DNA of 36,197 bases from a virus, in the IMG/VR virus record IMGVR_UViG_3300047510_003084, positions 1 to 36,197 of that record, one strand, 5' to 3'. Positions within the stretch are counted from its first letter, which is position 1, and each line of letters starts with the position of its first letter. This document shows positions 2,068 to 34,867 of the stretch, piece by piece. Position numbers and translations under genes: made by a program. A model generated the notes under the pieces. It was not told where the DNA came from and did not search any database. It worked only from the letters and a program-made list of their open reading frames with translations.

Positions 2068-2648
2068 GAGATCAATATAAAGTCTTAGCGGAGAAGTATA
2101 ATCAAGTAGCTGAAGCAGTTCCCGCTTTAACTATGGATACAATAATATCCGTATTAGCTAAAGAAGTTGAAGACTGGACATATACAGGCGATGCTCCATA
2201 TGATATTAGATATCAGGAATTTACAGACTTTGTAATACGCGGTCTTCCTTTAAAAAATAATATAAAAGCGGCCTGGGATGCAATGACCCCTGAAGATAAG
2301 AAAAGGACCTATGAAATGGTCATAAACGAATTAGTAATTAAGTATGCGTATGCAGAAAACATTGAGTCAGTAGCTCTTAAAGCATTAAACTACGATAATA
2401 AACAGTTAAAGGAGTTTACTAGGTGGCTCTTTTCTCAATGGAACTCATTAGATCCGGAACGCGACACTTTACAAGATTGGTTTTACGGTCGCGTAGGGGA
2501 TTACGAATGTACTAATCCTGACGAAGATACAAAGCGGCTAGCTTATAACCTTCTGTTAAAAGAAATAGAGAGATGGCGTAATTATCTAAAAGCCGGTAAA
2601 GAGATTAAGAAAGCTTCTGATACAGCTCAGGTTGATCTAGATATATAA
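2064..2648 (+). CDS. Dual-tagged small protein, family B
   Basis: This 194-aa paralogue of the preceding gene begins MRDQYKVLAEKY and ends SDTAQVDLDI. The region TLQDWFYGRVGDYEC is conserved with its neighbour; the most divergent part is around residues 115-140. It has lost an Asn-Tyr-Val stretch near residue 40 relative to its twin, a small in-frame indel. The end of its coding sequence overlaps an exact TATAAATA (2644-2651) that may drive the next gene. Function is unknown. Duplicated, diverging bodies would fit effectors under selection from host defences, but that is speculation. Confidence 0.9.
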   Translation: MRDQYKVLAEKYNQVAEAVPALTMDTIISVLAKEVEDWTYTGDAPYDIRYQEFTDFVIRGLPLKNNIKAAWDAMTPEDKKRTYEMVINELVIKYAYAENIESVALKALNYDNKQLKEFTRWLFSQWNSLDPERDTLQDWFYGRVGDYECTNPDEDTKRLAYNLLLKEIERWRNYLKAGKEIKKASDTAQVDLDI

Positions 2649-2651
2649 ATA
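2644..2651 (+). promoter_or_regulatory. T4-late-promoter-like TATAAATA
   Basis: This is an exact match to the T4 late promoter core TATAAATA. It overlaps the upstream stop codon and ends 6 nt before the ATG at 2658. T4 late transcripts start a few bases downstream of this box, so an mRNA from here would be nearly leaderless. In AT-rich DNA an 8-mer like this can occur by chance. Confidence 0.4.
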
Positions 2652-3471: not shown

Positions 3472-3530
3472 GAAGATGTTGGCTATAGGTAACTTGGTAA
3501 TTATATCCGTATTAACCTTAGGTAATCCAC

Positions 3531-3559
3531 GATTTTTTTTGCAAAATTTTTCCGCGAAA
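3531..3559 (+). repeat. T-rich repeat element, copy A
   Basis: GATTTTTTTT is followed a few bases later by AATTTTTCCGCG. Related sequences occur at 10096-10120 and 10153-10188, on the other side of the GC-richer gene block. The 3441-3641 gap holds this element, the tandem duplication and the decayed repeat copy, with no gene I can support. The role is unknown; candidates are a transcription boundary or a recombination site. Confidence 0.45.
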
Positions 3560-3569
3560 AGTCTATATT

Positions 3570-3603
3570 GGAAATTCGAACCCCCGTGGGGATTCAAACA
3601 ACC
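3570..3603 (+). repeat. 34-bp direct repeat, copy 2 (decayed gene start)
   Basis: This is the second copy of the repeat at 3287-3320. Translated in the equivalent frame it gives EIRTPVGIQTT, against EIQTLVKIQTT in the intact gene. The ATG is replaced by TTG and the frame stops after about 20 codons. It is probably a gene remnant. Confidence 0.55.
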
Positions 3604-4153: not shown

Positions 4154-4257
4154 AGGGTGGGTGATTGCGCCCGGGCAGTCCCATTCGATACGGACAATGG
4201 TACGGATATCTGCACGGTCTGCAAGTCTAATCTTCGAGAAAAATCCGGATTTAAAGC

Positions 4258-4285
4258 TTGCCAAAGTGCCACAATAGATTAATTT
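4258..4285 (+). promoter_or_regulatory. Early promoter P1
   Basis: TTGCCA (4258-4263), a 16-bp spacer and TAATTT (4280-4285), preceded by the recurrent AAGC. The -10 ends 9 nt before the ATG at 4295. The downstream TAATTTTG with TTG 19 bp upstream also fits the Bacteroidota pattern TTG-N19-TAnnTTTG. Confidence 0.55.
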
Positions 4286-4294
4286 TGTGGGGCA

Positions 4295-4519
4295 ATGAAA
4301 GAACATTACCAAGACCAGGTCTTCTTCATCAACATCCTCAACAAGGCCTCGAACACGATCTCCCGTAAGCGCACCGTCCTCACCAAGTACGATCATCAGA
4401 TGACCCGAGATATCCCGATCGAATTCGAGTACGAGGACGCTCATCAGATCATCATCGGAGTCTGCGATGATCGTGAGATCTTCACCCGAAACCACGTCGG
4501 CATCTTTGAGCTCATTTAA
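4295..4519 (+). CDS. Small early protein (74 aa)
   Basis: This 74-aa protein starts MKEHYQDQVFFINIL. It is the first gene of the GC-richer block of small genes, each with its own promoter. It is a mixed alpha/beta sequence (IPIEFEYEDAHQIIIGV), with no membrane segment or recognised motif. The start is set by promoter P1, whose -10 ends 9 nt upstream, so the mRNA should be almost leaderless. The next promoter (TTGCAA at 4522) begins two bases after its stop codon. A long open frame on the other strand exists only because of the codon bias of this block. By position it may be a host-takeover protein; that is inference. Confidence 0.75.
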   Translation: MKEHYQDQVFFINILNKASNTISRKRTVLTKYDHQMTRDIPIEFEYEDAHQIIIGVCDDREIFTRNHVGIFELI

Positions 4520-4521
4520 GC

Positions 4522-4550
4522 TTGCAAGTTGCCACAAACGGTACCATAAT
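4522..4550 (+). promoter_or_regulatory. Early promoter P2
   Basis: TTGCAA (4522-4527), a 17-bp spacer and CATAAT (4545-4550), directly after the upstream stop (TAAGCTTGCAA). The distance to the ATG at 4572 is 21 nt, longer than for most promoters in the series. Confidence 0.7.
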
Positions 4551-4571
4551 CATCGCACAATTAAGTTACAT

Positions 4572-5171
4572 ATGCTCAAGTACAAACAAAAGCGCGATCT
4601 TAGCGACGAAAGCAAAGCCCCGACCGGTCTCGGCTTCTACCCGACGTTCGAGACGTGCGAGCCGACGATCGGCATCTCTATCGTACGTTTCTATAGTATG
4701 CACGGCGCTTATCTCGGCTGGTGCGACGAAGCCGCTGCGAAGAAGTTCTTCTACGGCAAGCTCTATTACAAGACGAAAGGCGCTTACACGATCAAGACGC
4801 GTCGCTCTTATCGTCGGCGCGCTACGCGCATGATCTTTATCTACGAAAAGGCTTCGAAAGGTCTTGCGGCGTATGCGGTTAAGCGAGCGCTCGACGATAA
4901 CGATATGGTCGATATGAGCGATAAGCGTGCGCTTGCCGTCGCGACGCTTAACACCTTCAAGACGATGACTTACTACGCTAGCGGTCTCGATAGCTTTAAT
5001 GACCCTTACAACATCGTGCCGAACGAGATCCGCACTAAGTTTCGTAACGACTTAGCTAACTTCGTCGAGCTCAAGCGTAACGAGCTTATCGCTATCTGCC
5101 AGCGCGAAATCGATGCTAGCGACGTACTTAACGAAGCGTCTACGGCCGCTAACGTAAGCCTCGATATTTAA
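4572..5171 (+). CDS. C-terminal LDI-tagged early-block protein
   Basis: This 199-aa protein starts MLKYKQKRDLSDES. The start is chosen because promoter P2 and the previous gene lie upstream, although the frame stays open back to 4467. It ends TAANVSLDI, the same C-terminal tag as the array at 1-2.6 kb. The codons are entirely different (GTAAGCCTCGATATTTAA), so the tag is conserved as protein. The N-terminus has L-S-D at residues 10-12, like the protein at 19127. The centre is very basic (IKTRRSYRRRATR). The body contains a Tyr/Lys-rich region and a helical C-terminal half. Function is unknown. It links the early block to the tagged family. Confidence 0.82.
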   Translation: MLKYKQKRDLSDESKAPTGLGFYPTFETCEPTIGISIVRFYSMHGAYLGWCDEAAAKKFFYGKLYYKTKGAYTIKTRRSYRRRATRMIFIYEKASKGLAAYAVKRALDDNDMVDMSDKRALAVATLNTFKTMTYYASGLDSFNDPYNIVPNEIRTKFRNDLANFVELKRNELIAICQREIDASDVLNEASTAANVSLDI

Positions 5172-5173
5172 GC

Positions 5174-5201
5174 TTGCAAGTCAGTTCAAACGTTACATCA
5201 T
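5174..5201 (+). promoter_or_regulatory. Early promoter P3
   Basis: TTGCAA (5174-5179), a 16-bp spacer and CATCAT (5196-5201). The -35 begins two bases after the upstream stop. The -10 ends 10 nt before the ATG at 5212. Confidence 0.6.
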
Positions 5202-5211
5202 CATCTACGTA

Positions 5212-5451
5212 ATGAAAAGCAAACTCGCAATTCTGCTCGCTGATCGCGCTAGCAAGTACAAGACCCGGTACGCCAATGCTGGCTGCGATTCGAACGTCAT
5301 CCATGACGATTACGATGCTCTGATGAGCATTGCGCAGATGATCGAAGATAGCGCTGATAAGAACGCGATCACGCGTGCGATGTGGCGCCTCGATACTGCT
5401 GTTCGTGATGAGATCCCGGACGAGGTCTTCTGGGCTTTTAACGGTAAATAA
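5212..5451 (+). CDS. Small early protein (79 aa)
   Basis: This 79-aa, mostly helical soluble protein starts MKSKLAILLADRASKYKTR, with a central helix DALMSIAQMIEDSADKNAI and an acidic C-terminus. No family is recognised. The start is fixed by promoter P3, 10 nt upstream, and no Shine-Dalgarno sequence fits between promoter and ATG. The next promoter abuts the stop codon. It is one of a set of similar-sized genes with GC-rich codons, which suggests an early accessory function. Confidence 0.72.
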   Translation: MKSKLAILLADRASKYKTRYANAGCDSNVIHDDYDALMSIAQMIEDSADKNAITRAMWRLDTAVRDEIPDEVFWAFNGK

Positions 5452-5453
5452 GC

Positions 5454-5481
5454 TTGCAATTGGTCCAGAAATCCTCACACT
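5454..5481 (+). promoter_or_regulatory. Early promoter P4
   Basis: TTGCAA (5454-5459), a 16-bp spacer and CACACT (5476-5481), a weaker -10. It directly follows the upstream stop. The -10 ends 10 nt before the ATG at 5492. Confidence 0.5.
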
Positions 5482-5491
5482 CATATCCGTA

Positions 5492-5656
5492 ATGAACAAG
5501 ACTATCACCCCCGAAGATATCCTTCACGTACTCGAGAGCGCTGAGTTCGATCGCTGGTACCAAGAAGAGTTCAATGACTTCGTGGTCGGTGATTCGCGTA
5601 AGAAGGACACGCCTTCTCGCGAAGAAATCCTTAAGGACATTGCGAATCTCTTCTAA
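5492..5656 (+). CDS. Small early protein (54 aa)
   Basis: This 54-aa acidic protein starts MNKTITPEDILHVLESAEF, with aromatic RWYQEEFNDFVV and a C-terminal helix (SREEILKDIANLF). The start at 5492 is preferred over in-frame upstream ATGs because those lie inside the previous gene and upstream of promoter P4. No family is recognised. Leader length is predicted to be a few bases at most. Confidence 0.7.
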   Translation: MNKTITPEDILHVLESAEFDRWYQEEFNDFVVGDSRKKDTPSREEILKDIANLF

Positions 5657-5664
5657 GAAAAAGC

Positions 5665-5692
5665 TTGCAGGTCACCGCAAAAGTTACATCAT
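5665..5692 (+). promoter_or_regulatory. Early promoter P5
   Basis: TTGCAG (5665-5670), a 16-bp spacer and CATCAT (5687-5692), preceded by AAGC. The -10 ends 10 nt before the ATG at 5703. Confidence 0.6.
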
Positions 5693-5702
5693 CATCTACG
5701 TA

Positions 5703-5960
5703 ATGAAAATTAAGCTTACCGACGAACAGCGTTTGCAGATGGATAGCATTTGGGCTGCGATGGACGCCCTTCAGAAGGATAAGCAGTTCATGAAGCTCAT
5801 GAAGCACTGCTGCGATGCGAACTTCAATGACGAGAAGGTCACCGCAGAGAACGAAGACGATTACTCTCGCATCGTTAACTTCTACGACGATCTCCTCGAT
5901 CGCGCTAACTCATTCAACCTCTTCACCTATCCCGTCGAAGAAGACCCCAACTGCGCTTAA
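5703..5960 (+). CDS. Small early protein (85 aa)
   Basis: This 85-aa helical acidic protein starts MKIKLTDEQRLQMDSIWAAM. It has a CC pair (KHCCDANFNDE) and a DDYSRIVNFYDDLLDRANSF helix. No family is recognised. The start is set by promoter P5, 10 nt upstream. The gene ends 7 bp before the first tRNA, so the two tRNAs are probably transcribed from P5 by read-through and processed from that transcript. Confidence 0.72.
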   Translation: MKIKLTDEQRLQMDSIWAAMDALQKDKQFMKLMKHCCDANFNDEKVTAENEDDYSRIVNFYDDLLDRANSFNLFTYPVEEDPNCA

Positions 5961-5967
5961 CTCTTTC

Positions 5968-6043
5968 GGGCGGTTAGCTTAACGGTCAAAGCAGAGGACT
6001 CATAATCCTTTGAGTGGGGGTTCGAATCCCTCACCGCCCACCA
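5968..6043 (+). tRNA. tRNA with CAT anticodon (Met, or Ile reading AUA)
   Basis: A full cloverleaf can be folded. The acceptor GGGCGGT pairs with ACCGCCC, the D stem is GCTT/AAGC, and the anticodon stem GAGGA/TCCTT carries the loop CTCATAA, so the anticodon is CAT. The T arm GGGGG-TTCGAAT-CCCTC is normal, the discriminator is A and CCA is encoded. The first pair is G-C, so it is not an initiator tRNA. Elongator Met and lysidine-modified Ile cannot be told apart by eye. The Ile identity would help translate the ATA-rich genes outside this block. Confidence 0.93.
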
Positions 6044-6046
6044 ATT

Positions 6047-6121
6047 GGTGCTTTAGCTCAACGGTAGAGCTGGAGCCTTTTAAGCTCTAGGTTGTGGGTT
6101 CGAATCCCACAGGCACCACCA
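6047..6121 (+). tRNA. tRNA-Lys (TTT)
   Basis: The acceptor GGTGCTT pairs with AGGCACC (one G-T pair) and the D stem is GCTC/GAGC. The anticodon stem GGAGC/GCTCT carries the loop CTTTTAA, so the anticodon is TTT. The T arm is GTGGG-TTCGAAT-CCCAC, the discriminator is A and CCA is encoded. Three bases separate it from the previous tRNA. It reads AAA, a frequent codon in the AT-rich part of this genome. Confidence 0.95.
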
Positions 6122-6140
6122 CTTTCTCTAACTCATTCAT

Positions 6141-6329
6141 ATGGATAACGTCGAAAAAATCTGTGTCGCGGCAATTGTTCTTATTGTCTTGGTTGCAGCT
6201 CTTGCCGGGTATGTGTTTGGTCAGAATAACATCCAGAAGGAGGCTATCCTGCTCGGTCATGCGCACTACGCGTACAAGAGCGATGGTGCTCCGGAGTTTA
6301 AGTGGAACGAGTGCATTCAGTTGCACTAA
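6141..6329 (+). CDS. Small single-span membrane protein (62 aa)
   Basis: This 62-aa protein starts MDNVEKICVAAIVLIVLVAA, followed by LAGYVFGQ. The short acidic N-terminus and one transmembrane helix (about residues 8-27) are followed by a soluble tail of about 35 residues containing His, Tyr and one Cys. It follows the tRNAs by 19 bp with no evident promoter, so it probably shares their transcript. A small inner-membrane protein in an early block may affect host membrane functions or superinfection; that is inference. Confidence 0.72.
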   Translation: MDNVEKICVAAIVLIVLVAALAGYVFGQNNIQKEAILLGHAHYAYKSDGAPEFKWNECIQLH

Positions 6330-6333
6330 AAGC

Positions 6334-6362
6334 TTGCAGTTCGGTAACGTTTGAGCCATTAT
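6334..6362 (+). promoter_or_regulatory. Early promoter P6
   Basis: TTGCAG (6334-6339), a 17-bp spacer and CATTAT (6357-6362), preceded by AAAAGC. The -10 ends 9 nt before the ATG at 6372. Confidence 0.65.
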
Positions 6363-6371
6363 ATTTTCAAC

Positions 6372-6650
6372 ATGAATAACGGAATCCATACCTACGTTTA
6401 CGATAACCGGAACCATCCGGTTGGCGTTCTTGCCGCTGCTCCGAGCGATGGCAATGAAGTGTACATTGGCTGGTCGCGGTGCAATCGAGGCGCCGGCGAC
6501 CACTTTAACAAGTTCGAGGGCACCAGGATCGCTTACCGGCGATCGGTGGTTGGTTCGCGGACTCCCGTGCCGGATTCGATGCACGATGAGTACCTGAACT
6601 TCCATGCCCGGTGCACCCGGTACTTCAAGAACAAGTCCGTCGCTCTTTAA
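6372..6650 (+). CDS. Small early protein (92 aa)
   Basis: This 92-aa protein starts MNNGIHTYVYDNRNHPVGVL. The ATG at 6372 is preferred to a TTG at 6351 because promoter P6 has its -10 at 6357-6362. The sequence is beta-rich (NEVYIGWSRC) and basic in the middle (GTRIAYRRSVVG), with two Cys. The pattern 'VYD..NHPVGVLAA' followed by an 'IGWS+CN+' block looks like a small compact domain, but I cannot name it. Four bases separate its stop from the next gene, with which it forms a two-gene unit. Confidence 0.72.
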   Translation: MNNGIHTYVYDNRNHPVGVLAAAPSDGNEVYIGWSRCNRGAGDHFNKFEGTRIAYRRSVVGSRTPVPDSMHDEYLNFHARCTRYFKNKSVAL

Positions 6651-6654
6651 TAAC

Positions 6655-6855
6655 ATGCCTAAGAAGAAGATCAAGCATATCGATACCATGCCTGTCGACC
6701 TGTTCGAGCGCGAGCACCGTAAGGAGATCGAATGGCGCACCGAGCAAATCCTCGGTAATGGGCCGTACGGCGACGATTACAGCGACGCCTACGATGCTGC
6801 TTACGAGCAGGCCGTCGAAGAGATCGCCGAGAGCAAGGGTGTTACCCTTTTGTAA
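6655..6855 (+). CDS. Small early protein (66 aa)
   Basis: This 66-aa protein starts MPKKKIKHIDTMPVDLFERE. A basic N-terminus is followed by an acidic, Tyr-rich C-terminal half (YGDDYSDAYDAAYEQAVEEI). It is the second gene of the P6 unit and starts 4 bp after the previous stop. The ATG at 6655 is used because the frame upstream overlaps the preceding gene. No family is recognised. The acidic patch might mimic DNA, as in several phage inhibitors, but this is only suggested by composition. Confidence 0.7.
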   Translation: MPKKKIKHIDTMPVDLFEREHRKEIEWRTEQILGNGPYGDDYSDAYDAAYEQAVEEIAESKGVTLL

Positions 6856-6863
6856 GAAAGAGC

Positions 6864-6892
6864 TTGCATTTTAAACCAAAAGATCCGATACT
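6864..6892 (+). promoter_or_regulatory. Early promoter P7
   Basis: TTGCAT (6864-6869), a 17-bp spacer and GATACT (6887-6892). The -10 ends only 7 nt before the ATG at 6900, the shortest distance in the set. Confidence 0.62.
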
Positions 6893-6899
6893 TTACATC

Positions 6900-7151
6900 A
6901 TGAAGAACATCACTAACGTCTACGTTGACTCCAACAGCTCGCGCGCTATCGTTACCCGTGACGGGGTCACCCGTTCGCGCCGCTTCCTCCACTCGAAGTT
7001 CGGTGGCAAGAAGACGGCTACGGCTAAGGCGGCCGAGTACGCGAACTACATCAAGAACGAGGCTACGTTCGAGCAGTTCATGAACGCCTGGCGTCCTCAG
7101 GGCCGTCCGTTGAAGACCGAGTTCTTCGGTCGTCGCATCATCAAGAACTAA
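6900..7151 (+). CDS. Small basic early protein, AP2-like pattern
   Basis: This 83-aa strongly basic protein starts MKNITNVYVDSNSSRAIVTR. The stretch SRAIVTRDGVTRSRRFLHSK, followed by F-G-G-K-K-x-A-x-A-K-A-A-E-Y-A, resembles the three beta strands plus helix of AP2-like DNA-binding domains in homing endonucleases and integrase arm domains. That is a by-eye similarity, not a search result. It could bind DNA as a small regulator. The start is fixed by promoter P7, 7 nt upstream. It stands alone between P7 and the next promoter. Confidence 0.7.
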   Translation: MKNITNVYVDSNSSRAIVTRDGVTRSRRFLHSKFGGKKTATAKAAEYANYIKNEATFEQFMNAWRPQGRPLKTEFFGRRIIKN

Positions 7152-7172
7152 TCAGAAAGTTACCAAAAGTAG

Positions 7173-7200
7173 TTGATTTATTCCCTCATCCATCCATAAT
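7173..7200 (+). promoter_or_regulatory. Early promoter, variant without AAGCTTGC
   Basis: TTGATT (7173-7178), a 16-bp spacer and CATAAT (7195-7200). The leader is longer (22 nt from the -10 to the ATG at 7223) and no Shine-Dalgarno sequence is visible. Confidence 0.5.
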
Positions 7201-7222
7201 TGTAACGTAACAAATCAATACT

Positions 7223-7480
7223 ATGAATACCGATATCAAGAACACTCAGACCCCCGAGGCTAAGGCTAAGCGTGCTGCTACCGTCGCGACCAAGCGCGAG
7301 CAGAAGGCTTCCGAGCGTGGCTACACTCTTCCGTTGGTTCTCACCTGCAAGGTGACCGGTAAGAGCGTGAAGTACACCAGTGCGGCGTACATCGATAAGT
7401 GCATCGCGAAGGCCGGGTCCCTCGAGGCTCTGCAGACCAGTTACGTCAGTCGTGAGGGTAAGCGTTCGAATAAGTCCTAA
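7223..7480 (+). CDS. Small early protein, paralogue of the gene at 9672
   Basis: This 85-aa basic protein has a Lys/Ala-rich N-terminal arm followed by a domain LVLTCKVTGKSVKYTSAAYI, then C-I-A-K-A-G-S-L-E-A-L-Q. The same domain occurs at 9672-10001 (IILTCTITGKTVTWTNKKII, then Y-G-S-L-E-A-F-Q), so the two genes are paralogues flanking the second half of the block. From memory, similar 'LTC.VTGK' domains are common in phage hypothetical proteins. The single conserved Cys argues against a zinc site on its own. A strong terminator follows at 7502-7529. Confidence 0.78.
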   Translation: MNTDIKNTQTPEAKAKRAATVATKREQKASERGYTLPLVLTCKVTGKSVKYTSAAYIDKCIAKAGSLEALQTSYVSREGKRSNKS

Positions 7481-7501
7481 ACTACTCTAGCGTAACACTT
7501 A

Positions 7502-7529
7502 AGCCGGCTCGAAAGGGCCGGCTTTTTTT
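7502..7529 (+). terminator. Intrinsic terminator
   Basis: AGCCGGCTC-GAAA-GGGCCGGCT forms a 9-bp stem (one G-T pair) with a GNRA tetraloop and is followed by a run of seven T. It ends the unit of the gene at 7223-7480. It is the only strong plus-strand terminator seen in this block. Confidence 0.92.
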
Positions 7530-7530
7530 G

Positions 7531-7558
7531 TTGCCTTTCAATCAAAAGGTCCCATACT
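7531..7558 (+). promoter_or_regulatory. Early promoter P8
   Basis: TTGCCT (7531-7536), a 16-bp spacer and CATACT (7553-7558), directly after the terminator. The -10 ends 10 nt before the ATG at 7569. Confidence 0.65.
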
Positions 7559-7568
7559 TGTCTTCGTA

Positions 7569-7742
7569 ATGAATTACGAAACCCTTACCGGCGATCTCAG
7601 CGCGATGTGCCGCGATGCTCTTCTCTCTGATGAGCCTCTTAGTCTCCAAGAAATCCCCCATTTTGAAACCATTTATGAAACCGAACACGTCCACTCCGAT
7701 GAAGAATATGCTCTCTGGCTTGCTAAGTACCTTTATGACTAA
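7569..7742 (+). CDS. Small acidic early protein (57 aa)
   Basis: A 57-codon frame starts MNYETLTGDLSAMCRDALLS and ends EEYALWLAKYLYD. It is acidic and helical. The start is fixed by promoter P8, 10 nt upstream, and the coding style matches its neighbours. The next gene's ATG lies within its last codons (8-bp overlap), so the two should be translated together. No family is recognised. Confidence 0.72.
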   Translation: MNYETLTGDLSAMCRDALLSDEPLSLQEIPHFETIYETEHVHSDEEYALWLAKYLYD

Positions 7743-7905
7743 CCTTCGTAACTTCTTCAGCTCGATCGATGGTCGTAGCTTCTTCATCAGCTGCTTCACC
7801 GTCCTGAGCGTGATCAACATCGTCTCCGGTCTGGTTGGTGCCAATCCCTGGCAGGTCAATTGCGGTGTGACGCAGCTGTTCCTGGCCGTGGCACTCTGCC
7901 GGTAA
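7735..7905 (+). CDS. Small membrane protein (56 aa)
   Basis: This 56-aa protein starts MTNLRNFFSSIDGRSFFISC. A hydrophobic segment (about residues 17-35, FISCFTVLSVINIVSGLVG) and a second apolar stretch near the C-terminus (TQLFLAVALCR) suggest one or two membrane passes. The ATG at 7735 overlaps the end of the preceding gene; the frame is open further upstream but would run through that gene. It is the second gene of the P8 unit. Function is unknown. Confidence 0.65.
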   Translation: MTNLRNFFSSIDGRSFFISCFTVLSVINIVSGLVGANPWQVNCGVTQLFLAVALCR

Positions 7906-7913
7906 GAAAGAGC

Positions 7914-7941
7914 TTGCCATTCGGAACAGTTCAGCCATACT
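7914..7941 (+). promoter_or_regulatory. Early promoter P9
   Basis: TTGCCA (7914-7919), a 16-bp spacer and CATACT (7936-7941), preceded by AGAGC. Unlike most of the set, it is followed by a real leader of about 20 nt. Confidence 0.72.
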
Positions 7942-7958
7942 ATTCTAACACTTAAAAC

Positions 7959-7965
7959 AAAGGAA
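7959..7965 (+). promoter_or_regulatory. Shine-Dalgarno site, exceptional in this block
   Basis: AAAGGAA lies 4 nt before the ATG at 7970. It is the only clear ribosome-binding site among the early genes, and it occurs just where the promoter is far enough upstream to leave room for a leader. Confidence 0.7.
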
Positions 7966-7969
7966 CAAT

Positions 7970-8443
7970 ATGGGACTCGACATGTATCTGACCGCTGAGA
8001 AGTATCTCTCCAATTGGGATCCCGCCGATGCCGAGAACAAGGCGTCGTTCGCCAAGGTCATCGAGGCTGCTGGATTCGATATCGAGGATGTGCCTCCGGG
8101 CTCGCCAGGCGTCACGATCGAGGTCAACGTCATGTACTGGCGTAAGGCGAACGCCATCCACAACTGGTTCGTCCAGCGTGTCCAGAACGGTACCGATGAT
8201 TGTGGCCGCTATCGGGTCACTCGCGATCATCTCACACTCCTGAAGGAGGCCTGCGAGGAGGTGATCGACAATCCGAACGCCACTCACGAGGTCCTTCCGA
8301 CTAAGTCCGGGTTCTTCTTCGGAGGGACCCTGTACGATGAACGGTACTGGAACGATCTCGAGGAGACGGCTGTGCGTATCGGTAAGATCTTGAACGATCC
8401 GAAGTACCAGAAGTGCACGTTCTACTACCAGTCCAGCTGGTAA
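7970..8443 (+). CDS. Conserved phage protein, MGLDMYL family
   Basis: This 157-aa protein starts MGLDMYLTAEKYLSNWD and contains MYWRKANAIHNWFVQRVQNG, followed by D-x-x-G-R-Y-x-V. I recognise this arrangement (MGLDMYL... YWRKANxIHxWFV...) from many phage and some bacterial proteins of unknown function; I cannot name a Pfam entry with certainty. The conserved Trp, Arg, His and Asp-Cys-Gly suggest a compact binding domain. It is the largest untagged gene of the block and the only one with a visible Shine-Dalgarno sequence. EKY at residues 10-12 resembles the tag by coincidence, because no L-x-E precedes it. Confidence 0.88.
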   Translation: MGLDMYLTAEKYLSNWDPADAENKASFAKVIEAAGFDIEDVPPGSPGVTIEVNVMYWRKANAIHNWFVQRVQNGTDDCGRYRVTRDHLTLLKEACEEVIDNPNATHEVLPTKSGFFFGGTLYDERYWNDLEETAVRIGKILNDPKYQKCTFYYQSSW

Positions 8444-8451
8444 GAAAGAGC

Positions 8452-8479
8452 TTGCCAATCGGATCAACTCAGCCATACT
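8452..8479 (+). promoter_or_regulatory. Early promoter P10
   Basis: TTGCCA (8452-8457), a 16-bp spacer and CATACT (8474-8479). The -10 ends 9 nt before the ATG at 8489. Confidence 0.72.
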
Positions 8480-8488
8480 ATCTGCACA

Positions 8489-8680
8489 ATGATCGACCAC
8501 AAACAAATCGAACACGATCTGGATATCAAGAGCCGCATCATCGATTATATGGACGAGCTCGACAAGATGTCCGAGGACGTCGACCCGGGAGAGGTCCGGC
8601 ACCATCTCCGGAGCATCCTCGAACGGTCTGAGGACGCTCTCTTCGAGCAGAGGGTCCGGGCTTTGTTCGGTTCCGAATAA
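8489..8680 (+). CDS. Small early protein (63 aa)
   Basis: This 63-aa all-helical, highly charged protein starts MIDHKQIEHDLDIKSRIIDY, with heptad-like hydrophobic spacing and an EVRHHLRSILERSEDALFEQ helix. It may dimerise as a coiled coil. An internal DLDI near the N-terminus is unrelated to the C-terminal tag. The start is fixed by promoter P10, 9 nt upstream. No family is recognised. Confidence 0.72.
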   Translation: MIDHKQIEHDLDIKSRIIDYMDELDKMSEDVDPGEVRHHLRSILERSEDALFEQRVRALFGSE

Positions 8681-8682
8681 GC

Positions 8683-8711
8683 TTGACATATCCTGCAATT
8701 GTAACCATACT
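8683..8711 (+). promoter_or_regulatory. Early promoter P11
   Basis: TTGACA (8683-8688), the perfect sigma70 -35, with a 17-bp spacer and CATACT (8706-8711). It starts two bases after the upstream stop. The -10 ends 9 nt before the ATG at 8721. It is the best match to the consensus in the series. Confidence 0.78.
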
Positions 8712-8720
8712 GTACTCACA

Positions 8721-8951
8721 ATGATGAACGATAACTGGACCATTTGTTTCAATCAGTACAATGCTATGTCCGAGATGGCTCGGCATATCCTGCGCCGGTG
8801 TGCTGCTGATCGTCTCAGCTCATTCGGTGCCGAAGAGATCGGCTCGTCCGATATCAATCACGAGCTGTATGCGATGTGGAGCCAGTCCAATAAGGATTGG
8901 CGAGAGGCGATGATCAATGAGGCCGAGGCCTTCATCAGCAACCCTAGCTAA
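8721..8951 (+). CDS. Small early protein (76 aa)
   Basis: This 76-aa helical protein starts MMNDNWTICFNQYNAMSEMA, with RHILRRCAADRLSSFGAEEI and three Trp residues. No family is recognised. The first ATG at 8721 is placed by P11; the second Met (8724) is equally possible. Its stop is one base before the next gene, forming a two-gene unit. Confidence 0.7.
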   Translation: MMNDNWTICFNQYNAMSEMARHILRRCAADRLSSFGAEEIGSSDINHELYAMWSQSNKDWREAMINEAEAFISNPS

Positions 8952-8952
8952 C

Positions 8953-9174
8953 ATGGAAGAGCACGAATACTACAACTTATCCAATCACTCTCACGGTGAT
9001 GACCTCATTGAGGCCAAACAATACATCCTCAGCCTGATGGTGGCTCATCTCCGGACCGAACATCAGATGAAGATGGTGGACATCCACAATCGTCTGGGTG
9101 TGCCGATGAAGTTCATCCGGGAGGTCATCGAGGAGCTGCCGTCGTCCGATCGTCGGGATATCCTCAACGGTTAA
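8953..9174 (+). CDS. Small early protein with possible helix-turn-helix
   Basis: This 73-aa protein starts MEEHEYYNLSNHSHGDDLIE. The segment MKMVDIHNRLGVPMKFIREV, followed by IEEL, has the spacing of a helix-turn-helix: a first helix, a Gly-Val turn, then a recognition-like helix. It could be a small transcription regulator or sigma-like fragment. This is by-eye reading. It is the second gene of the P11 unit, starting one base after the previous stop. The frame upstream of 8953 runs through that gene. Confidence 0.7.
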   Translation: MEEHEYYNLSNHSHGDDLIEAKQYILSLMVAHLRTEHQMKMVDIHNRLGVPMKFIREVIEELPSSDRRDILNG

Positions 9175-9176
9175 GC

Positions 9177-9204
9177 TTGCCACCTAGCATAAGGTAGCCA
9201 TACT
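9177..9204 (+). promoter_or_regulatory. Early promoter P12
   Basis: TTGCCA (9177-9182), a 16-bp spacer and CATACT (9199-9204), beginning right after the stop codon. The -10 ends 9 nt before the ATG at 9214. Confidence 0.72.
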
Positions 9205-9213
9205 GTAAGCACA

Positions 9214-9435
9214 ATGAAGACCGGTATCACAATGATCCCAAAGAACGGTGCCAAGTACATGATGGTCACCTACTGCTCGACTCATTGGGCTAACAAGATC
9301 GAACACTTCCGCAAGAGCGATCTGGAGGCGGTTGATCCTAAGAAGCATCATTGGTTCCGGTGCTCGTACCTGTACGCCTGCCGTGACGGTAAGATCATTC
9401 GCATCCGGTCCAATGGCACTCCTTGGTCGAAGTAA
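9214..9435 (+). CDS. Small basic early protein (73 aa)
   Basis: This 73-aa basic protein starts MKTGITMIPKNGAKYMMVTY. It has three Cys and several His (YCSTHWANKIEH, KKHHWFRCSYLYACRDGK), so metal binding is conceivable, although spacing matches no zinc finger I know. The C-terminus KIIRIRSNGTPWSK is beta-like. The start is set by P12, 9 nt upstream. It is followed after 7 bp by a second small gene in the same unit. Confidence 0.7.
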   Translation: MKTGITMIPKNGAKYMMVTYCSTHWANKIEHFRKSDLEAVDPKKHHWFRCSYLYACRDGKIIRIRSNGTPWSK

Positions 9436-9442
9436 TCCAACT

Positions 9443-9625
9443 ATGAAGTACCAATTCATGACCATCGACAAGACATGTGTAGGTGACAGCACCGATCAGA
9501 TCATCTCGGACGTCACCCTCAAGGAGTACCTGCGAGCGTTCCCAAAGGATGATTGCATGACGTTCGGTGAGTACTGGTATGGGTATGATGATGGTGATCA
9601 TATCTACATCTGGCGTAAGGTCTAA
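9443..9625 (+). CDS. Small acidic early protein (60 aa)
   Basis: This 60-aa protein starts MKYQFMTIDKTCVGDSTDQI and ends in a Tyr/Asp-rich region (EYWYGYDDGDHIYIWRKV). The net charge is negative. No family is recognised. The ATG at 9443 follows the previous gene by 7 bp, and the frame upstream of it overlaps that gene. It is the second member of the P12 unit. Confidence 0.68.
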   Translation: MKYQFMTIDKTCVGDSTDQIISDVTLKEYLRAFPKDDCMTFGEYWYGYDDGDHIYIWRKV

Positions 9626-9633
9626 CTAAGAGC

Positions 9634-9662
9634 TTGCACATCCAATAGGTTGGTAACATAAT
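9634..9662 (+). promoter_or_regulatory. Early promoter P13
   Basis: TTGCAC (9634-9639), a 17-bp spacer and CATAAT (9657-9662), preceded by AGAGC. The -10 ends 9 nt before the ATG at 9672. Confidence 0.68.
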
Positions 9663-9671
9663 ACATCCACA

Positions 9672-10001
9672 ATGAACGTACCTAACAAGATCATCCTCAC
9701 GTGCACCATCACCGGTAAGACGGTGACGTGGACCAATAAGAAGATCATCCAGAAGAAGATCGAGCAGTACGGCTCACTGGAGGCATTCCAGGCTCAGTTC
9801 ACCTGCAAGGGTGCGAAGAAGAAGGAGAAGAAGCCATCAGCAGTCGCCATCAAGCCCATCCTGGTGCAGGGTGTGGCGATGGGTAAGATGTCGCAAGAGG
9901 AGTACAATGCTAAGTACGTCGACCGGACGTACATCTGGCCGGATGGTACTACGTCACGGGTAGCTGCTCCAGTACCTGTTCAATCGAACAATGTAGTCTA
10001 A
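9672..10001 (+). CDS. Small early protein, paralogue of the gene at 7223
   Basis: This 109-aa protein has an N-terminal domain KIILTCTITGKTVTWTNKKI, then Y-G-S-L-E-A-F-Q-x-x-F-x-C, that matches the domain of the gene at 7223-7480. It adds a Lys-rich linker (GAKKKEKKPS) and a C-terminal extension of about 60 residues ending in Pro/Val-rich sequence. It is the last gene of the GC-rich block, and the coding direction reverses after it. Two duplicated copies with different tails suggest adaptation of one binding domain to two partners, but no partner can be named. Confidence 0.78.
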   Translation: MNVPNKIILTCTITGKTVTWTNKKIIQKKIEQYGSLEAFQAQFTCKGAKKKEKKPSAVAIKPILVQGVAMGKMSQEEYNAKYVDRTYIWPDGTTSRVAAPVPVQSNNVV

Positions 10002-11850: not shown

Positions 11851-11858
11851 TATTTATT
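11851..11858 (-). promoter_or_regulatory. T4-late-promoter-like AATAAATA
   Basis: On the minus strand this reads AATAAATA (7 of 8 of TATAAATA) and ends 6 nt before the ATG of the FkbM gene, the same spacing as at 2644-2651. Confidence 0.3.
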
Positions 11859-18371: not shown

Positions 18372-18379
18372 AATAAATA
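18372..18379 (+). promoter_or_regulatory. T4-late-promoter-like AATAAATA
   Basis: AATAAATA (7 of 8 of TATAAATA) ends 9 nt before the ATG at 18389. Confidence 0.3.
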
Positions 18380-19126: not shown

Positions 19127-19360
19127 ATGAAAAAAAATTATAATTATAATAAGCTGTCCGACAAATATGAAATGCTAGTAGAAAAAGCTAGCTTAACTTT
19201 AAGAAAAGAAATGTTTAGAGAAGAGTGCTGGGACGCATCCAGTGACCGCCCTATACCGGAATGCTGGACTGAAACAGGCGACATTAAAGAAGAATGCTGG
19301 TCCTCAGGACCAGGCGGGTCTAGTAGTATAGACGGCGGTGCTATAGCAGATTCAGTTTAA
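19127..19360 (+). CDS. N-tagged protein with three ECW repeats (77 aa)
   Basis: This protein starts MKKNYNYNKLSDKYEMLVEK. The tag is diverged (L-S-D at residues 10-12), with a second L-V-E at 17-19. The body contains three units: EECWDASSDRP, PECWTETGD and EECWSSGPGG, each with a Glu-Cys-Trp core spaced 12-17 residues apart. The C-terminus is a flexible Gly/Ser tail. Repeated E-C-W could bind metal or interlock by disulfides; no known motif fits. It converges with the gene at 19357-21249, overlapping it by 4 bp. Confidence 0.78.
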   Translation: MKKNYNYNKLSDKYEMLVEKASLTLRKEMFREECWDASSDRPIPECWTETGDIKEECWSSGPGGSSSIDGGAIADSV

Positions 19361-21249
19361 AGAGATTTTAAAGTTTTCCAAACCGCTTCTTTATCTACCC
19401 CTGTAGGCAGCAGTCTAAACGCGCTGTATTTGTCTCCAGCATCAAGGTATGCTCTAAATTCAGTACCAGATGCTACTCTTGGTGTTGGTTTAATTTCTAC
19501 TTTCTTTAAATTTGTAGAGTATCTTTCTATATTTTTATATCTACTGGCTTCATCTATATCAGTATAAAGGTTAATTGTTATGTCAGAAGCTTCTGGGGAT
19601 TCATTCAAGGTAGCAATATATTCGTAAATTGTACCAATCGGGGAAATTTCAGCAACAATAAGATGTATTTTAGCTCTGTATTGTTCAAGTAATGGTACGT
19701 AATGATTCCACACATTAACTTTTTTAGTTATGTTTATACCTGTACCGCCTCGTTCTTGCGGAGAAATAATTATATAAACATCATCATTTTCTTTAGCAGC
19801 AATTATTGCAGCATCAAAATGCCCTACGTGTGGCGGGTTAAAACCACCACCAAAGAATCCTATAGAATAACTTTTTTCTTCTTCTGCGGATTTATTTTCT
19901 TCTTCTTCATCTATTTGCTCTTTAGGTTGAGGTATAGAGCGGCCACGTTCTCCGCTGTATAAGAAGTTATTAGCGCTGAAATCTAGTCTATCAACAATCT
20001 TGACTTGATTAGGTGTATCCCCTACATACAACACATGACCTTCTCCAGGTACAGTAATAAATTTATCTCCTACCGGTATAAAAGATTTCATGTCATCTAA
20101 TTTACCCTTTACCTGGGCCAGTAATTGCAGAAAGTATTCTTTTATTTGAGCCATGTTGTATGTAGCTCCAAGTAGATTATAAAAAGAATCTTTATTTGTT
20201 TCTATAAAGACTTTTATATCTTCTTTCTTTTTACTAGCGTTTGCTTTACCACGAGTACCGAGTTTTTCTGAAGCTTTATCTACTTTAAAATTAATAAAAG
20301 CTACAAAACCACTAAAAAATTTAGCACCTTCAAAAGACTCCCCTGCTCTTACCGCCTTAAACATGCCACCACCTTCTCTGACCATACTGTTAAGATATTG
20401 TTTTAAATAACCTGTAACAACTGTATTACTTAAATATTGAGCATCAAATTCAGGCGTAATACTATTTATTTTAGTAGTTGCTGAAACTAATAATGCGTTA
20501 ATTGTTCTTCTTGTAGGTTCGTCTATAGTTAAATTTAATGTATTATAGTTAGAACCTTCTGCAAAGACCCCTACTTTTTTTAGAGAAAGTACAACACTTG
20601 TAACATCTCTTCCTGCAGGAGAAGAAATAATTTTGTTGCCGTCTGCTTGTATATTAAAACCTGCATGTACCACTATTCCTACTTTTGCGTTAGATACTTG
20701 GTTAAATAGTTTAGAATTTGGATCAGCAGGTATTGCGTATGTGATTAAATTTGGCTGAAAAGTAATAAAATTTTCATTGTTTATATTTTTTATTACAGGG
20801 GGTCTAGAAGGAGAAAAAAGTAAATCCCCTTGATACATTTTACCTGAACCGTCGTAGCCTTGTTGAAAGTAAGGAAATATTGTTTTTAAAAGGTCTCTTA
20901 AACCGGGAGCCGCGTCTCCGTATAGTGCATCTACTTCTTCAACGCTGTGTATTAAGTTGGGAGTATTTGAAAATACAGTCTTAGTACCAATAAAAAACTT
21001 ACCTTCGTACTCTGGCCTTGGATCTATACCAAAAAATAAAGCTGGAGCCCCGTCTATTTTTAAATTTACTGAGGTTTTACTACGAATACCTTCAAGATAA
21101 TTAACAAAGTTCTCAACCTGTTCTACGAATTTAGTATAACCAGCTCTACCTTCTTCTATAGCCAAGTCTTCAAGATGGGTGAGATGGGCTTTTAAAGTCG
21201 CGTTTTCTGCTGATTCAACTAAAGTGTAGTACTGTTTAAACTTAAGCAT
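19357..21249 (-). CDS. DUF6267-like protein: KxDG domain fused to HxGH nucleotidyltransferase
   Basis: This 630-aa protein has two parts. Residues 1-450 begin with HLTHLEDLAIEEG, then SVNLKIDGAPALFFGIDP with K64-x-D66-G67, then GKFFIGTK and MYQGDLLFSP (141-145). The order K-x-D-G...G-D-L resembles motifs I and III/IV of covalent nucleotidyltransferases (DNA/RNA ligases). From memory this matches DUF6267 proteins of T4-like cyanophages. Residues 461-630 are an HxGH nucleotidyltransferase: FFGGGFNPPHVGH (H474, H477) and the later S-G-T-E-F-R, as in NMN adenylyltransferases. The N-terminus has L-V-E at 10-12, a possible packaging tag. A role in nucleotide or RNA repair, or NAD metabolism, is plausible. 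Confidence 0.88.
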   Translation of the reverse strand: MLKFKQYYTLVESAENATLKAHLTHLEDLAIEEGRAGYTKFVEQVENFVNYLEGIRSKTSVNLKIDGAPALFFGIDPRPEYEGKFFIGTKTVFSNTPNLIHSVEEVDALYGDAAPGLRDLLKTIFPYFQQGYDGSGKMYQGDLLFSPSRPPVIKNINNENFITFQPNLITYAIPADPNSKLFNQVSNAKVGIVVHAGFNIQADGNKIISSPAGRDVTSVVLSLKKVGVFAEGSNYNTLNLTIDEPTRRTINALLVSATTKINSITPEFDAQYLSNTVVTGYLKQYLNSMVREGGGMFKAVRAGESFEGAKFFSGFVAFINFKVDKASEKLGTRGKANASKKKEDIKVFIETNKDSFYNLLGATYNMAQIKEYFLQLLAQVKGKLDDMKSFIPVGDKFITVPGEGHVLYVGDTPNQVKIVDRLDFSANNFLYSGERGRSIPQPKEQIDEEEENKSAEEEKSYSIGFFGGGFNPPHVGHFDAAIIAAKENDDVYIIISPQERGGTGINITKKVNVWNHYVPLLEQYRAKIHLIVAEISPIGTIYEYIATLNESPEASDITINLYTDIDEASRYKNIERYSTNLKKVEIKPTPRVASGTEFRAYLDAGDKYSAFRLLPTGVDKEAVWKTLKSL

Positions 21250-27202: not shown

Positions 27203-27778
27203 GTGAACTCTGGTGTTTATCGTATATTAAGTCCAACTGGACATTATTATATAGGTTCAACTAAAAACTATACTAAACGCTGGAAAGAGCATTTAAAAAA
27301 GCTTACCACGGGTAAGCATAATAATACACATATGCAGAACCGATATAGCAAGTATCCGGAAGGATGGTTGTTCGAGATTGTAGAGTGTGTGTCTTTAGAA
27401 ACTAAAAAACTTCTAGAAGTTGAACAAAAATACCTCTCGGCGTGTGTTGGTAAAGATGTATTATGCATGAATATTAATAAATCCGCTGGTCACCCGTCTA
27501 GGCTCGGAATTAAAATACCACATACCCAGCAAACAAAAAATAAAATAAGCCTCGCACACAAAGGTATGCTTGCGTCAGCAGAGACACGCACAAAAATGAG
27601 CATAGCTCATAAAGGCAAAGTTAAGACTGAAACACACAGAGCTAGTCTCAGTAAATCCTGCACTGGGAGAAAACTCTCAGAAGAAACAAAATTTAAAAAA
27701 AGTTTAGCTCTAAAGGGTAAGCCTTGGTCTGAGTCTCGTAGACTTGCACATCTACGTAAAAAATTACAGTTGGCTTAA
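27203..27778 (+). CDS. GIY-YIG homing endonuclease with NUMOD3 motifs
   Basis: This 191-aa protein starts at GTG 27203. The GIY-YIG domain shows GVYRIL (4-9), HYYIGST (14-20), the catalytic-type Arg in TKRWKEH (R26) and the Glu in LLEVEQKYL (E74). It is followed by helical DNA-binding NUMOD3 repeats (TKNKISLAHKGM, TKMSIAHKGK, LSKSCTGRKLSEETKFKKSL). It is a free-standing, mobile endonuclease of the seg type that spreads by cutting genomes lacking it. It is inserted between the gene ending at 27183 and the clamp loader gene, whose stop it overlaps by 15 bp. Confidence 0.94.
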   Translation: MNSGVYRILSPTGHYYIGSTKNYTKRWKEHLKKLTTGKHNNTHMQNRYSKYPEGWLFEIVECVSLETKKLLEVEQKYLSACVGKDVLCMNINKSAGHPSRLGIKIPHTQQTKNKISLAHKGMLASAETRTKMSIAHKGKVKTETHRASLSKSCTGRKLSEETKFKKSLALKGKPWSESRRLAHLRKKLQLA

Positions 27779-28705
27779 AGCTATAATGCAAGAAAACATA
27801 TTAATTTCTTGATCCATAACTAAAGCGCTTTTATAAAGATTATCCGAGACTTGCAGCAATGCAAGTCTCTTTTTATCTTCTGGTAAAGAGCTCTTGTAAA
27901 CAGAATTAAATAAGTCTTTAAGAAGCTTAGGGTAGTCGTTACCGAACGATTGCTCGTTTTCAATAACAAGTCTACGCAAAGACATCAGGTCTTCTTTGTT
28001 AAGCAGTTTTTCTAGAATCTCTTGCGCAAAGTCTTCATTGTTAATCGTATCTTTAATACAGAGTTTATTCTGTATAACATTACGCTGTACAAAATTAATT
28101 ATCTTGCGTAGGTCGGGGTAATTATACCTAATAACTTCTTTAAGTCTATTAACTTGCTTTTCATCAAAAGAAACACTTTCAGTTTTAAGAATATAAACAA
28201 TTCGCTTAGCGTATTCTCTAATAGGCGGAGTAAAGTCGGTAAAGACCTGACACCGAGACTGAATAGGCTGAATAATACGATGAAGATAATTACCGGTAAG
28301 AATAAAACGAGTATTGCCTGCGTACTCTTCCATAACATTACGCAATGCGCGCTGTCCAGCATCAGTAAAGTTATCAAATTCATCTAGAAAAATAACTTTA
28401 ATTTTTCCATCTATACTCTTAGTTTGAGCAAAAGTCAAAATGGAAGTACGGACTTCATCAATACCATTTTTCTCGCTAGCGTTAATATAGAGATATTGCG
28501 CATCTAGAATCTCGTTAATGAGAATCTTAGCTAGCGTTGTCTTACCTGTGCCTGCGTTACCTACTAAGAGTATATTGGGTATCTCCTGCTTTCGCTGACA
28601 CTCTTCTACAAAAGAACGAAGAGTGTCAGATAAGACCATATCGACCAGTTTAGTTGGTCGATATTTTTCTACCCAAATATTTTTGAGCTGTTCGTTAATA
28701 GACAT
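27764..28705 (-). CDS. gp44: Sliding-clamp loader ATPase subunit (gp44/RFC-small type)
   Basis: This 313-aa AAA+ ATPase has WVEKYRPTKL at the N-terminus, Walker A GNAGTGKTT (49-57), Walker B IFLDEFD (D108, E109), sensor-1 ILTGNY near 135 and the SRC motif (150-152) with the arginine finger. This is the T4 gp44/RFC small-subunit pattern; it loads the sliding clamp on primer-template during phage DNA replication. The length is close to T4 gp44 (319 aa). The start overlaps the dUTPase stop by one base. The partner subunit (gp62-like) and clamp (gp45-like) are not in this window. Confidence 0.97.
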   Translation of the reverse strand: MSINEQLKNIWVEKYRPTKLVDMVLSDTLRSFVEECQRKQEIPNILLVGNAGTGKTTLAKILINEILDAQYLYINASEKNGIDEVRTSILTFAQTKSIDGKIKVIFLDEFDNFTDAGQRALRNVMEEYAGNTRFILTGNYLHRIIQPIQSRCQVFTDFTPPIREYAKRIVYILKTESVSFDEKQVNRLKEVIRYNYPDLRKIINFVQRNVIQNKLCIKDTINNEDFAQEILEKLLNKEDLMSLRRLVIENEQSFGNDYPKLLKDLFNSVYKSSLPEDKKRLALLQVSDNLYKSALVMDQEINMFSCIIALSQL

Positions 28706-34859: not shown

Positions 34860-34867
34860 GATAAATA
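34860..34867 (+). promoter_or_regulatory. T4-late-promoter-like GATAAATA
   Basis: GATAAATA (7 of 8 of TATAAATA) ends 6 nt before the ATG at 34874, the same distance as at 2644-2651. Confidence 0.35.

Follow-up and report, generated by a model that had tools for sequence, protein, structure and literature searches.

Why does a phage of the T4 type set one promoter after another almost directly against the start codons of its genes? The question is raised by IMG/VR record IMGVR_UViG_3300047510_003084, a viral contig of 36,197 bases that was analysed over its whole length (hereafter the window) and in which small plus-strand genes are preceded, unit after unit, by promoters of nearly constant design. 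To judge from its genes, this is part of the genome of a T4-type myovirus belonging to a deep uncultivated clade. We propose, and consider very likely, that this is a leaderless T4-type phage in which both an early-type array of small genes and the late genes would be translated from messenger RNAs that begin at, or a few bases before, the AUG.

The first line of evidence is the array itself. On the plus strand, AGCTTG[CA] boxes begin at positions 4255, 4519, 5171, 5451, 5662, 6331, 6861, 7911, 8449, 8680, 9174 and 9631, and TTGCCT is found at 7531. Within 4250-9680 AGCTTG[AC] occurs 12 times, as compared with a mean of 0.58 (maximum 4) in dinucleotide shuffles, and the full pattern of TTG[AC], a spacer of 16 or 17 base pairs (bp) and a −10 box gives 13 matches versus 0.46 (maximum 3). 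This density, far above that of the shuffles, confirms the recurrent promoter array noticed in a preliminary description of the locus. That description counted thirteen promoters of one design. Thirteen −35-like boxes are present, but the first (4258) has no credible −10, which leaves 12 complete sites, and in 12 of 12 the −35 and −10 boxes are 16-17 bp apart, as in sigma-70-type promoters (a TTG-like −35 with the −10 at 16-18 bp). The −10 sequence originally given, CATACT or CATAAT, is exact in seven sites; the others read CATCAT (twice), CACACT, CATTAT and GATACT. Most of the promoters overlap or adjoin the stop codon of the preceding gene.

The short distance to the ATG is real, although it holds for ten units and not for the eleven first counted: in 10 of the 12 promoters the −10 ends 7-10 nucleotides (nt) before the ATG and no Shine-Dalgarno (SD) site is present, a placement that agrees with the published in-silico signature of leaderless genes in bacteria, namely a TA-like box roughly 10-12 bp upstream of the start codon (PMC3160421). 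The exceptions are the units of genes 4572 and 7970 (Table 1), the second of which has the leader and AAAGGAA site that had been described. The reported lack of SD sites at the close-set promoters also stands, since no SD 4-mer precedes 18 of the 19 starts in the array. If the seventh base after the −10 is taken as +1, the array leaders are 1-4 nt long, and the transcripts should begin at or a few bases from the start codon.

The array ATGs appear to be genuine. Between the window and its orthologues in one relative, G003, substitutions number 121, 37 and 23 at codon positions 3, 1 and 2, respectively, and 20, 3 and 3 in the first 15 codons; because the third-position bias is present from the first 15 codons on, the ATGs are real starts and the open reading frames (ORFs) are coding from the ATG. 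Relatives were found by means of the array and other proteins (G002, 28 kb; G003; G004; G005; G001, 140 kb; then G006-G010). A scan of viral contigs for the promoter pattern gave 61 stretches, most of them likely due to chance, with G002, G003, G004, G008 and G009 among them. In the G002 orthologues, insertions and deletions alter the gap between the −10 and the ATG (from 9 to 6 nt at 8721 and from 10 to 8 nt at 5703) and always leave it within 6-10 nt. Of the eight AGCTTGM sites that precede ORFs in G001, seven are followed at roughly the right distance by a −10 and show gaps of 6-10 nt; among these seven, the −10 of the site at 6274 is weak. In G008 the gap is exactly 6 in most units between 5727 and 9353, which, with a six-base discriminator, would place +1 on the A of the ATG.

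Could these instead be the middle promoters of a T4-type phage? The clade is T4-type, and the TTGC of the array recalls a portion of TTGCTT, the MotA box. MotA boxes, however, are located 11-13 bp from the −10, whereas the array box, with the consensus TTGCMA, is 16-17 bp away, the normal −35 position. We rejected the middle-promoter reading on this spacing and regard it as most improbable.

The second line of evidence is that the short spacing is not confined to the array; late genes have it too. Near gene starts in the clade, the late box NATAAATA is 4-11 nt from the ATG in 46 cases out of 61, versus 2 of 130 in T4, S-PM2, S-CRM01, P-SSM2, C48C1 and phiM12 (Fisher p ~1e-28, a value that overstates the independent events because the counts include orthologues). 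By genome, the proportion is 4/4 in the window, 15/20 in G001, 15/19 in G006 and 4/4 in G008. Among 80 loci selected by their terminase the late box is at 4-11 nt in 18 of 22; since the two sets have some contigs in common, this check overlaps in part with the first count. The control pattern TATTTATA was clean; NTATTTAA, applied to the 80 loci, overlaps real late promoters and is invalid as a control. In the relatives, the genes with close-set late promoters include those for the tail tube (G001), the baseplate hub (G006) and tail fibres, as is typical of T4 late promoters. The T4 late box is 8 bp long and begins at −13 (PMC2988020); a gap of 5 would therefore place +1 on the A of the ATG.

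Table 1. Promoters and other features of the window; distances run from the end of the −10 or late box to the ATG.
Feature	Position	Strand	Remarks
Late promoter, T4 type, TATAAATA	2644..2651	+	6 nt to ATG 2658
About 19 small ORFs, 54-199 amino acids	4295..10001	+	Nearly all without known family
Lone −35-like box TTGCCA	4258..4263	+	Before ATG 4295; no convincing −10
Promoter TTGCAA-N17-CATAAT	4522..4550	+	21 nt to ATG 4572; short leader, no SD
Promoter TTGCAA-N16-CATCAT	5174..5201	+	10 nt to ATG 5212
Promoter TTGCAA-N16-CACACT	5454..5481	+	10 nt to ATG 5492
Promoter TTGCAG-N16-CATCAT	5665..5692	+	10 nt to ATG 5703
tRNA (anticodon CAU, perhaps Ile2) and tRNA-Lys (UUU)	5968..6121	+	Inside the array
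Promoter TTGCAG-N17-CATTAT	6334..6362	+	9 nt to ATG 6372
Promoter TTGCAT-N17-GATACT	6864..6892	+	7 nt to ATG 6900
Promoter-like TTGATT-N16-CATAAT	7173..7200	+	22 nt to ATG 7223
Intrinsic terminator, 10-bp stem and T tract	7501..7524	+	Runs straight into promoter of 7569; PeSL-like composite
Promoter TTGCCT-N16-CATACT	7531..7558	+	10 nt to ATG 7569
Promoter TTGCCA-N16-CATACT	7914..7941	+	28-nt gap with AAAGGAA SD to ATG 7970; leadered exception
Promoter TTGCCA-N16-CATACT	8452..8479	+	9 nt to ATG 8489
Promoter TTGACA-N17-CATACT	8683..8711	+	9 nt to ATG 8721
Promoter TTGCCA-N16-CATACT	9177..9204	+	9 nt to ATG 9214
Promoter TTGCAC-N17-CATAAT	9634..9662	+	9 nt to ATG 9672
Late promoter AATAAATA	11851..11858	−	6 nt to ATG 11844
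Late promoter AATAAATA	18372..18379	+	9 nt to ATG 18389
Late promoter GATAAATA	34860..34867	+	6 nt to ATG 34874

The third line of evidence comes from the ribosome-binding sites of whole genomes. When 4-mers of the anti-SD complement at −20 to −5 were compared with shuffles of the same stretches, the clade was at chance (z −0.9 to +1.1) and all eight comparison phages were enriched (z 3.5-15.6). A −10-like box at a gap of 5-10 precedes 43-52% of the free-standing genes in G001, G006 and G008, as compared with 10% of those in T4, in which 41% carry the box at 25-30; likewise, the values for gaps of 5-10 and 25-30 are 0.27 and 0.13 in G001, the opposite of T4. In both G001 and G006, about half of the called genes have their start between −30 and +20 relative to an upstream stop codon, and this suggests that the remaining genes initiate by stop-start coupling. 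Because the late promoters are equally close-set and SD words are at chance across the genome, leaderless or near-leaderless expression looks like a genome-wide translation strategy. The more sweeping claim, that the clade has abandoned SD-led initiation wholly in favour of leaderless mRNAs and stop-start coupling, with both promoter classes fixed at a leader of 0-4 nt, is one toward which we lean with less assurance.

A genome-wide SD signal at chance would also be expected if translation were SD-independent but leadered, with ribosomes loading onto unstructured A/U-rich leaders of long read-through RNAs and the nearby promoters being an accident of compact intergenic spaces; intergenic gaps of only ~40 nt and the rarity of terminators in the array fit this picture. 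Yet the freshwater cyanophage S-CRM01 and P-SSM2, whose SD signals are weak, keep their late promoters 12-30 nt from the ATG, and therefore SD loss alone does not draw a promoter to the start codon. Moreover, two unrelated promoter types in the clade have the identical short gap, and the excess of free-standing genes with a −10-like box at 5-10 is not matched in T4. We judge leadered translation of this kind improbable.

Is close spacing, then, a special design of early takeover genes, as first supposed? Early timing of the array promoters is probable, because they resemble sigma-70 promoters and differ from the NATAAATA late box and because the codon usage of the array differs from that of the rest of the phage. 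A special early-gene design is not supported, since the late promoters of the clade share the spacing and SD words are at chance genome-wide, and the term takeover has no support because nearly all of the array proteins lack family matches; the ORF at 7970-8443 matches phrog_7971, whose function is unknown. The median G+C content at third codon positions (GC3) is 0.64 in the array (about 0.6-0.8 per gene) versus 0.27 in the rest of the phage (0.2-0.36 in most genes). The array uses AAG 101 times, AAA 11 times and ATA never; elsewhere AAA (197) exceeds AAG (118) and ATA occurs 148 times. The rest of the phage is thus heavy in codons for tRNA-Lys(UUU) and in AUA, which the CAU tRNA of the array may read, as if early genes used host codons and the array tRNAs served later genes.

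The suggestion that each array gene is separately driven holds only in part. Promoters are indeed set unit by unit, but five genes have none of their own: 6655, 7735, 8953 and 9443 begin at or beside the preceding stop, and 6141 follows the two tRNA genes. Read-through is possible, because several genes are promoterless and a single clear terminator (7501-7524) was found. Gene 6141 begins 19 nt past the CCA end of tRNA-Lys (window 6122-6141) with neither promoter nor SD, and 3'-end processing of the tRNA might generate the 5' end of its mRNA.

Comparison of the relatives also reveals traces of exchange. In G003 the gene of 5492 sits behind the promoter that serves 5212 in the window, the intervening gene being missing; G003 and G004 both lack segment 8953-9435; and a terminator is directly followed by a promoter in one window unit (7501-7569) and in two of G002. 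T4-type phages contain promoter-terminator cassettes, the promoter early stem-loops (PeSLs; Arbiol 2010 and Comeau 2014, as cited in PMC4503421 and PMC4177764), and the promoter segments of the array could likewise be near-identical because they are kept for the shuffling of small genes, with ATG proximity a by-product. This is compatible with leaderless expression, and as an explanation of the spacing we think it unlikely. No stem-loop before the promoter was found in the other window units, and because most units lack one we do not class the array as PeSL (a terminator directly before an early promoter). In addition, array units differ in their spacers and discriminators but preserve the boxes and the gap, and late promoters, which lie outside any cassette, are equally spaced.

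We therefore return to leaderless expression. The array would be the early-type region of a T4-type myovirus that uses leaderless or near-leaderless mRNAs for much of its genome. Each array promoter is probably recognised by the RNA polymerase of the host carrying the main sigma factor, and the RNA would start 0-4 nt upstream of the AUG. The 5'-terminal AUG would be bound directly by ribosomes without an SD, in an initiation of the 70S type; 70S ribosomes are able to initiate on a 5'-terminal AUG (PMC9031893). Promoter and ATG would together make up a compact cassette attached to the preceding gene's stop codon, and the second genes of a unit would depend on stop-start coupling. Later, a gp55-type late sigma factor would act on NATAAATA promoters at an equal short distance, making the late genes leaderless too. 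Ribosomal protein S21 and sigma-70 region 2 (Sigma70_r2) were sought as possible phage-encoded causes, and neither family was found in the clade records searched.

Several points weigh against this proposal. Gene starts were taken as the first ATG of mechanically called ORFs (ATG only), so some are wrong. The predicted window leaders are 1-4 nt and not exactly 0, which is near-leaderless; two array genes have leaders of ~15-22 nt, one of them with an SD; and read-through transcripts across the array are possible. Finally, C at the first −10 position is unusual for a sigma-70-like consensus.

What kind of phage is this? The window encodes T4-type genes, including those for a DUF6267/cytidylyltransferase-like protein, ribonucleotide reductase subunits and structural proteins, and its gene at 27764-28705 is common to all T4-type phages tested (~30-38% identity). 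It contains no terminase and is tied to the clade by ~80-95% nucleotide identity with G003-G005 over long stretches. The terminases of G001, G003, G004 and G006-G009 form a single, fully supported clade and share ~73-77% identity with the G001 sequence and 29-38% with those of known T4-type phages. Across the relatives the hallmarks of T4-type myoviruses are present: the T4-type terminase, a tail sheath (36-43% identity to T4-type phages), a tail tube in G001 and, by iterative profile search, a homologue of the late sigma factor gp55 in G006. A terminase profile search of viral contigs returned 232 relatives, and a nucleotide search against phages gave essentially only tRNA matches. The habitat, read from the contig series, is apparently freshwater. 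Bacterial genomes were scanned twice, once for an array protein family and once for the clade terminase, and yielded no relatives; an actinobacterial host, suggested by array codon usage (AAG, ATC, CTC), is speculation.

Other observations concern the same genomes. A stretch of the window not included in the main gene calls, 3495-3598, matches G001 2876-2982 at 76% identity, while the two genomes otherwise have little DNA in common, and it contains ATTCGAACC and GATTCAAACAACC words resembling tRNA T arms. The minus-strand gene at 19357-21249 encodes a single 630-residue protein that joins the DUF6267 domain to a cytidylyltransferase/nicotinamide mononucleotide (NMN) adenylyltransferase-like domain, and its match spans two adjacent annotated genes in several cyanophages. 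The minus-strand ORF at 10214-10624 matches Melnitz (43%) and C48C1 (48%) and has a GC3 of 0.57, high for the non-array part. In G002 (L081), a block of AT-rich, purine-biased ORFs at 1551-2963, two of which have a strong AAAGGAG site ahead of the ATG, stands apart from the remainder of the phage and looks like a foreign insert.

How does the clade compare with known systems? In the accounts of the papers citing the PeSL work, T4-type early regions likewise hold small unknown genes, an early promoter per unit, cassette shuffling and some stem-loop and promoter units; here, by contrast, most units lack a stem-loop, and promoter and ATG are fused, leaving neither leader nor SD. The clade shares with T4 the 8-bp late box TATAAATA, used there with gp55, gp33 and gp45 (PMC2988020), but T4 keeps its SD sites (70% of genes) and its late promoters are 12-30 nt from the ATG as compared with 4-11 nt. 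TA-led genes of Actinobacteria and Deinococcus also have a −10 ~10-12 bp before the start and no SD (PMC3160421, PMC4633059); the difference is that in this T4-type phage host-like and phage late promoters are both at leaderless spacing. A further parallel is the cultured Pelagibacter phage HTVC008M (KC465899), which has eleven late promoters 5-8 nt from the ATG. Eight are at exactly 5, and these genes (e.g., 6279, 7561, 31131 and 49759) read NATAAATA-N5-ATG without an SD. Unlike the clade records searched, HTVC008M encodes S21, and its leaderless mode is only partial because SD sites are strong in its remaining genes (60%, z 10).

Promoter-to-ATG closeness of this kind is unusual among the relatives of phage T4. 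Phage transcripts have been described as often leaderless (PMC5312081), and leaderless phage genes and T4-type promoter-terminator cassettes are already known; what is new is that both promoter classes are fixed at leaderless spacing. We found no description of such a T4-type phage in our searches of the open-access literature, which leaves most subscription papers outside its coverage.

Leaderless phage genes, such as lambda cI, are usually viewed as isolated curiosities. Here a widespread clade, with its 232 terminase-related contigs, appears to use leaderless initiation in early-type and late genes alike, and the cultured HTVC008M displays the late half of the pattern. If this is true, these phages would offer a means of studying 70S or AUG-end initiation experimentally, and would demonstrate that gp55 promoters can be positioned so as to yield leaderless transcripts. 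It would also account for the exchange of small genes together with a promoter-ATG cassette, for which no ribosome-binding site would be needed.

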